A stretch of DNA of 46,461 nucleotides from an uncultured Clostridia bacterium (GTDB lineage: Bacteria > Bacillota > Peptococcia > Peptococcales > Peptococcaceae): the NCBI GenBank assembly GCA_944391285.1, contig CALXSY010000014.1, positions 1 through 46,461 on the forward strand. Direction: 5' to 3'. How positions within the stretch are numbered: position 1 is the stretch's first letter; every line of letters begins with the position of its first letter. Position numbers and translations under genes: made by a program. Below, one piece after another: positions 43,902 to 46,177 of the stretch. Under the pieces are notes generated by a model. The model was given only the letters and a program-made list of their open reading frames with translations, was not told the DNA's origin and did no database searches.

Positions 43902-43983
43902 GCGGTAGTGGCGGAATAGGCATACGCGCACGTTTGAGGGGCGTGTCCGGTCTCGGGTATGGGTTCAAGTCCCATCTACCGCA
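43902..43983 (+). tRNA. tRNA-Leu(GAG)
   Basis: An 82-nt class II tRNA with a variable arm. The acceptor GCGGTAG pairs with CTACCGC, discriminator A. The anticodon loop TTGAGGG between CACGT and GCGTG gives GAG (codon CTC). The T arm is ATGGG TTCAAGT CCCAT. It borders the accessory region, so it could serve as an integration site, but no second att copy is visible. Confidence 0.93.
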
Positions 43984-44042: not shown

Positions 44043-44153
44043 CTTTATTTCTCTAATCCGTAAATAATTCCGCTGTTTTACAGTAAAATACGCTATAAAA
44101 TAATGCTTAGCACCACGAATGGCACCACGAAATTTTTATAAGTATCGGCTTAT

Positions 44154-44463: not shown

Positions 44464-44763
44464 TTAACTTTTTACTTCTTCTTCGTTTTTGCTATGCACT
44501 TCAAGCGGCGGAATATTCTGCTCCTGCCATTCGTTAAAATCTATACCCATACGAAAGCCACGCAAAAAAGCTCCACTTTCTGCCGCTTGTACTTGTTTGA
44601 TGATTAGGTTTATAAGCTCATCATTTTCCGACCGGTCAAGCGGAAGCTTAGCTATAAAATTACTTAGCTCCCTTGCTGTTTTGTAGAAGTCTGCTGTCCT
44701 TTCTGCTAATATCAAAGCTTCTTGTTCTTCTTCCGGTTTATCAAAATCAAATATCTTTTCCAT
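44464..44763 (-). CDS. Small phage/ICE-type protein (99 aa)
   Basis: A highly acidic 99-residue protein, starting MEKIFDFDKPEEEQEAL, with a helical middle (ENDELINLIIKQVQAAESGAFLRGFRMG). The QVQAAESGAFLRGFRMG stretch is of a type seen in small prophage or conjugative-element proteins of Clostridia, but the function is unknown. ATG 44763 is chosen because AAAGGAGC lies before it; the frame opens nine codons earlier. It is last of the visible minus-strand accessory genes. Confidence 0.65.
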   Translation of the reverse strand: MEKIFDFDKPEEEQEALILAERTADFYKTARELSNFIAKLPLDRSENDELINLIIKQVQAAESGAFLRGFRMGIDFNEWQEQNIPPLEVHSKNEEEVKS

Positions 44764-44823
44764 TGTTTGCGCTCCTTTTAAACCATTCACCTAAATTAGG
44801 GTACTGGTTTTTCTTTGTCGTTA

Positions 44824-44849: not shown

Positions 44850-45074
44850 TTATAGCAAAATGGTATCTCCTTTTATTACTTTCTTGTCTGATAGCCTATC
44901 CAAAAAAGTTAAGTTTTCCGGTAAAACGGTTACAACAGATCCGCCGCATAATTCTACCAAAGCAACTGTAAAGCTACCATCTTCGCAACAGTCTATACCC
45001 CAACCAAGAAAGAATCCCTCTTTTTCCTCTCTTGTTCCTCGGGTAAGCCCTTTACATCTTCTATAACTTTGCAT
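44850..45074 (-). CDS. Small accessory protein (74 aa), unknown
   Basis: A 74-residue protein with three cysteines, one in CKG near the start and two in IDCCEDG. The rest has beta-strand character (SFTVALVELCGGSVVTVLPENLTFL). It looks like a small phage-type protein, but I cannot assign it. AAGGAGTGATAAA precedes ATG 45074. It lies 15 bp after the DUF1492-like gene. Confidence 0.6.
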   Translation of the reverse strand: MQSYRRCKGLTRGTREEKEGFFLGWGIDCCEDGSFTVALVELCGGSVVTVLPENLTFLDRLSDKKVIKGDTILL

Positions 45075-45539: not shown

Positions 45540-45633
45540 TCCTGCGCCGCCTTTCCTCTCTTTTTTTATCCCTGATGACTCCCTATTTTAGGGGGTCATT
45601 TTTATTATCTGTTACTCTCTTTAAAGCCAAAAG

Positions 45634-45893
45634 TGTTACAAATGTTTCAAGATGTTACACTTTTTTACGATATTTATCGTACTTGTAGCACTTGTAACAC
45701 TGTAACACTTTTTTTGACATACACTATATATATATTAGTATATTAATATGTATATATATTAATATAAAAGGTACTTCCCTATATAGTGTATATATAGTGT
45801 TACATATGTTACAAATGTTACATATAATAATAAACGCCTTTAATAAGGGATTTTTGAATTTTAATTTGTAACACTTGTGTAACACTTGTAACA
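45634..45893. repeat. TGTTACA/TGTAACA heptamer array with AT-rich core
   Basis: Ten exact heptamers lie in 260 bp. TGTTACA is at 45634, 45653, 45798, 45807 and 45816; its reverse complement TGTAACA is at 45693, 45701, 45867, 45878 and 45887. Close copies occur at 45643 and 45684. The neighbouring copies are 8, 9 or 11 bp apart. Between the groups lies nearly pure A/T DNA, flanked by ACACTATATATA (45721) and its inverse TATATATAGTGT (45789-45800). No gene is present in this 365-bp gap (45540-45904). It resembles an iteron-type replication origin or an operator array. Confidence 0.7.
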
Positions 45894-45904
45894 TATACTA
45901 AAAA

Positions 45905-46177
45905 TTAAAAATCATCTTCGCCGCTTGCTAATCGCCTTATATCTTCCTCAATGCGCCTAAATTCTAATATTGCTTGTTGCAAGGTCATATCCTCTTTTGT
46001 AGTTAGCCTTCGTGTAAGCACCTTATAAAATCCTGCTAAGCAGTCGCTAAGGTTCATATAGTACCCAAGGACGACACTTTCTTTTTTCTTGCCGTCCTTG
46101 CTTGCTGTCTGTTCTTGTCTAAGCATGAAATTCCGCTCATCTGCCGTAATAAAAAAGCCGTCTGTTAATTTAATCAT
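45905..46177 (-). CDS. Small accessory protein (90 aa), unknown
   Basis: A 90-residue basic-then-acidic soluble protein without recognised domain, ending in RRIEEDIRRLASGEDDF. Its middle (ESVVLGYYMNLSDCLAGFYKVLTRRLTTKEDMTLQQAI) is of a type sometimes seen in phage and conjugative elements. AAGGAG lies ten bases before ATG 46177. It follows the partial gene and its in-frame extension, whose TGA lies four bases upstream of this start. Confidence 0.55.
   Translation of the reverse strand: MIKLTDGFFITADERNFMLRQEQTASKDGKKKESVVLGYYMNLSDCLAGFYKVLTRRLTTKEDMTLQQAILEFRRIEEDIRRLASGEDDF

Follow-up and report, generated by a model that had tools for sequence, protein, structure and literature searches.

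A symmetric array of TGTTACA iterons as a candidate origin of replication in an integrative, satellite-like phage element

The heptamer array and its neighbouring genes

The window, by which we mean the whole stretch of DNA analyzed here (46,461 nucleotides, the entire contig C14 of an uncultured Clostridia bacterium), contains near its right end a tRNA-Leu(gag) gene, a run of small leftward genes that ends with a gene for an ArpU/RinA-like phage regulator, a non-coding region filled with heptamer repeats, a 90-aa gene, and the 3' end of a gene that is cut by the contig end (Table 1). Within the non-coding region, which lies directly upstream of the ArpU-like gene and 94 bp from its start, the heptamer TGTTACA or its reverse complement TGTAACA occurs ten times in exact form. 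When we shuffled positions 45540-45905 20,000 times with preservation of dinucleotides, the count averaged 0.19 and never exceeded 3. Two sites with a single mismatch each (TGTTTCA at 45643 and TGTAGCA at 45684) bring the array to twelve, in the order three forward and three reverse, core, three forward and three reverse, with heptamers spaced 8-11 bp apart within a group. The A/T-rich core contains the inverted repeat ATACACTATATA (45719-45730) / TATATAGTGTAT (45780-45791).

Table 1 Features at the right end of the window, in order of position
Feature	Position	Strand	Details
tRNA-Leu(gag), integration site	43902..43983	+	last 25 bp (43959-43983) = att core, repeated on contig C24
GCACCACGAA repeats near element end, candidate integrase arm sites	44110..44135	+	also by the att sites of C24, C4 and C25
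108-aa gene	44464..44790	-	function unknown; common to C25
Small phage-type gene	44850..45074	-	phrog_11000, function unknown; common to C25
ArpU/RinA-like phage regulator, 149 aa	45090..45539	-	phrog_36 transcriptional regulator, 1.1e-10; 99% identical copy in C25
TGTTACA iteron array	45634..45893		ten exact sites, both orientations
Exact forward sites	45634, 45653, 45798, 45807, 45816	+	TGTTACA match
Exact reverse sites	45693, 45701, 45867, 45878, 45887	-	TGTAACA match
Left iteron module	45634..45707		3 forward (middle TGTTTCA), 3 reverse (first TGTAGCA)
A/T-rich core, candidate melting region	45708..45797		90 bp, 82% A+T, inverted repeat
Right iteron module	45798..45893		3 forward and 3 reverse, all exact, 9-11 bp apart within groups
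90-aa gene upstream of array	45905..46177	-	phrog_154 'replication initiation protein', 2.7e-9
3' gene end cut by contig end	46323..46460	-	common to C25

A first-pass annotation of the locus had described ten heptamer copies within 260 bp, spaced about one DNA turn or less, on both sides of an AT-rich centre with an inverted repeat, and each part of this description is borne out; the limits of 45540-45904 that it gave enclose the array, whose true borders lie slightly inside them. It had also named frequent occurrence of the heptamer throughout the genome as evidence against its interpretation, and the heptamer is not common there: the 1.70 Mb contain 103 sites, of which 21 fall within the window array and its second copy, compared with 168 sites for the reversed control word. 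No DnaA boxes were found within 45540-45905. The + strand also has a terminator-like hairpin (45574-45600) in the interval from the array to the ArpU-like gene and, inside the core, a promoter-like TTGACA-16-TAGTAT (45714-45741); both match at close to the level expected there by chance.

Related elements at two tRNA genes

The second copy of the array, 97% identical to the first, is located on another contig of the assembly (G000:C25:737-1037), where it is accompanied, as in the window, by the ArpU-like gene and two more small genes. Site 45684, degenerate in the window, is an intact TGTAACA in the C25 copy, and all six right-module sites are intact in both copies. The final 77 bases of the window recur at the end of C25, and contigs C24 and C4 likewise have exactly 77 terminal bases in common, the pattern that an assembler leaves where two copies share a collapsed stretch. 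The shared interior stretch of the two elements was not found among the 36 contigs, and any initiator gene encoded there therefore cannot be seen.

The opposite ends of the elements are found on C24 and C4. On C24, an integrase gene, a repressor-type gene and a divergent HTH gene adjoin 25 bp that match the 3' end of the window tRNA-Leu, and on C4 an integrase gene adjoins a match to the tRNA-Ser of C25. The two integrases (G000:C24:23061-24367, in L206, and the C4 right end, L184:1346-2654) have open frames and identical protein sequences. We assigned attR to C24 and C4 and attL to the tRNA-Leu of the window and the tRNA-Ser of C25, and paired left with right ends by their att sequences. Judged from these sequences, two related elements are inserted at tRNA-Leu(gag) and tRNA-Ser(tga), and the mobile-element setting that the first-pass annotation had surmised from the small phage-type genes is confirmed by the integrase, the att repeats and the tRNA insertion that bound the element. 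The 3' ends of the two tRNA genes at which the same integrase is found are only partly alike.

Across the paired ends, the element order is attR, integrase, repressor, divergent early genes, the missing part, array, ArpU-like gene, two small genes and attL. The repressor regions beside the same integrase differ (L206:4734-5604 and L184:2819-4308), and the C4 copy also carries a small gene pair resembling HicA/HicB by eye; the elements are therefore mosaic. No structural genes were found in the visible ends of either element. An integrase at one end, divergent repressor and early genes, and an att site in a host gene are the layout of a phage-inducible chromosomal island (PICI), with the replication module of such a satellite represented here by the array alone. 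A PICI-type satellite fits this gene order; the element may also be a reduced prophage. Elsewhere in the assembly, contig C15 (G000:C15, L029:8235-12869) contains a separate phage packaging gene cluster with a distant ArpU-like gene (35% identity).

When we searched for an initiator, no initiator or helicase gene was found in the visible parts of the window element, a result that counts against the array being an origin. There was no PF05272 (VapE) match anywhere in the assembly, and its sole PF19263 (DUF5906) match lies on contig C1. This C1 helicase was rejected as a partner of the array because it is part of another element with its own integrase. That further element (L161:241-4485, at the G000:C1 left end) comprises the DUF5906 helicase, an excisionase-like gene and the integrase, and about 1.2 kb upstream of its helicase gene are other repeats (GTCAATCA / TTGAC) that are perhaps its own origin. 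The 90-aa gene was also rejected as the likely initiator: its PHROG label is weak, tblastn gave no match in phages, and the gene is not present beside the C25 array and hence does not belong to the unit in a fixed way. In the window and C25 elements, the first gene next to the array is the 90-aa gene or one of 68 aa; a DUF927/HTH_56 helicase gene directly upstream of the iterons was seen at other TGTTACA arrays.

The heptamer in other phages and genomes, and what the array might otherwise be

TGTTACA triples with a 9-bp step were found in at least 120 viral and at least 115 genome stretches, compared with 17 and 35 viral stretches for two control words in the same pattern; the triple was not found in the 45 other genomes of the class, and a literature search for the heptamer returned unrelated papers only. 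At least five sites in both orientations are present in 85 of the 120 viral loci listed. The same holds for 8 of the 17 loci of the reversed control word, and iteron arrays built from other words therefore exist. Host records of the heptamer arrays, among the matches listed, extend from Bacteroidota to archaea.

Removal of coding repeats and near-duplicates left 75 array groups among the matches listed, all of them sampled by TGTTACA itself. In 35 of these 75 groups no more than 200 bp separate the array from the nearest large gene, whose 3' end points toward the array in 29 of the 35, as opposed to 10 of 36 more distant large genes. Sequence clustering and scans for protein families placed 27 of the 35 adjacent genes among these matches in four helicase classes (DUF927, AAA_25, DUF5906 and VapE), the commonest array neighbour in the same set being a class that combines DUF927 with a Cch-type HTH. 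Profile comparison gave no support for a C-terminal domain common to the helicase classes. We suggest, tentatively and with the balance somewhat against it, that TGTTACA with a 9-bp period might be a widely shared origin word, used by phages and integrated elements of distant hosts with at least four helicase classes.

The arrays also take recurrent forms. Compact 54-bp TGTTACA inverted arrays (three reverse sites, about 10 bp, three forward sites) are present in L097, L231, L236, L243, L270, L277, L281, L284 and L288; where examined, arrays similar to these adjoin AAA_25 (RepA-like) helicase genes at the 3' end, and most of the records are of Bacteroidota. Other arrays, whose role is less evident, lie beside small terminase genes (L043, L048, L052, L096, L100, L115, L139, L146 and others), in many cases flanked by divergent genes; the phages concerned have an A-family DNA polymerase and no D5-type helicase nearby.

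Two settings count against an origin: many marine phages have the array next to a small terminase gene and lack such a helicase in its vicinity, and in three groups (the window element, L073/L106 and L120) it lies directly upstream of an ArpU-like gene. The latter arrangement, together with the many arrays at the start of terminase genes among the loci listed, underlies the main rival explanation, that the array is the control region of the ArpU-like late regulator and that the ArpU-like protein or a repressor acting on the heptamers controls the leftward genes. We regard this as unlikely. An ArpU-like neighbour was identified by ORF clustering in only 3 of the 75 groups, as against 27 with a helicase within 200 bp (among the matches listed), and in the closest ArpU-like relatives the repeats follow a helicase gene and are at least two genes away from arpU. 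Twelve operators flanking a 90-bp A/T core would, moreover, be unusual for a repressor. The repressor array that the first-pass annotation had offered as its alternative thus gains little support.

A Terminase_2 gene beside the array in about one third of the viral loci listed would suit a packaging (pac) or partition site for a small terminase or ParB-like protein; yet no terminase gene is present in the visible parts of the window element or its sister, and the helicase-adjacent loci do not require such a role, which we consider very improbable. Slightly less probable again is a decayed relic of a degraded prophage, with no present function. That no complete element assembles, that structural genes are nowhere visible and that 2 of the 12 window sites are degenerate are what would be said for decay, but the closeness of the two copies (97%), the intact right-module sites in both, and the open integrase frames with identical protein sequence in both elements argue against it.

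A candidate iteron origin compared with known systems

Taken together, the comparisons make it likely that an integrative, satellite-like phage element uses the array as its replication origin, and the best reading of its type is an iteron origin served by a Rep-type helicase, as in phages Sfi21 and A2 and the SaPIs. The candidate iteron origin of the first-pass annotation is supported by the anatomy of the Sfi21 and A2 origins and by the arrays at helicase 3' ends in relatives. Its proposal of a small initiator is not; the evidence points instead to an initiator helicase of the Rep type (D5/VapE/DUF927). In the proposed mechanism, the missing interior would code for such a helicase, whose DNA-binding domain would recognize the TGTTACA iterons, with one helicase assembly probably sitting on each six-site module; the A/T-rich core would then melt and the helicase would load for replication, which would start from the array after excision of the element. 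That two six-site modules suit two hexamers is only a suggestion.

As an origin, the window array would be a site of a known type, and it offers a precise candidate for a satellite-like element present twice in the genome. The most interesting part is the heptamer that is shared across different helicases and recurs at similar sites in many phages unrelated to one another. If the word is truly shared, this implies that there is a recognition factor in common, that recognition domains have been exchanged, or that one repeat was reached by convergence, and the occurrence of one heptamer beside different helicase classes poses a testable question about the co-evolution of phage origins and initiators. 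The heptamer would also be a simple search word for likely origins in uncultivated phages, in which origins are rarely annotated.

Searches of named-phage DNA gave no match to the whole region and only short, weak matches to the array alone, and no relatives of the ArpU-like protein, the integrase or the contig-end sequence were found in viral contigs. In named phages with an ArpU-like protein that matches part of that of the window, a VapE/D5 helicase gene is followed by a non-coding stretch, small genes and the ArpU-like gene, and in all three of the phages that were examined inverted repeats were recognized by eye in the stretch after the helicase gene. These repeats are made up of TGTTACA in one case. 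This is the Syntrophomonadaceae phage IMGVR 15540650 (PV036453, L383), in which the repeats come right after the VapE helicase gene and an ArpU-like gene related to that of the window lies further downstream; it differs in being a complete phage with a terminase, in having fewer exact sites, and in having two genes between the repeats and the ArpU-like gene.

Among origins annotated as such in their records, that of Sfi21 (AF115103, 34487-34784), given as 302 bp, resembles the array in being non-coding, about 300 bp long, and composed of short repeats that flank an A/T-rich core. Its GTTACT repeats, in opposite orientation, directly follow a D5/DUF5906-type gene; the repeat word is different from that of the window, and Sfi21 is a complete phage whose upstream gene is visible. 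The A2 rep_origin (AJ251789, 32208-32717) has the same layout, with inverted repeats on both sides of an A/T core and a D5-type primase-helicase gene immediately before them, but its repeat word, ACGGGAGGA, is unrelated. The iterons of the SaPI Rep helicases are located directly downstream of rep and are recognized via the C-terminal domain of the protein (PMC7581432). In the SaPI rep-ori and the SCCmec Cch2 origin the iterons adjoin the initiator helicase gene on its downstream side (PMC7581432), and the commonest neighbour of TGTTACA arrays among the matches listed is of the DUF927 class with a Cch-type HTH. Both systems use other iteron words (AAGTG for Cch2), and the helicase of the window element, unlike theirs, would lie in the missing interior.
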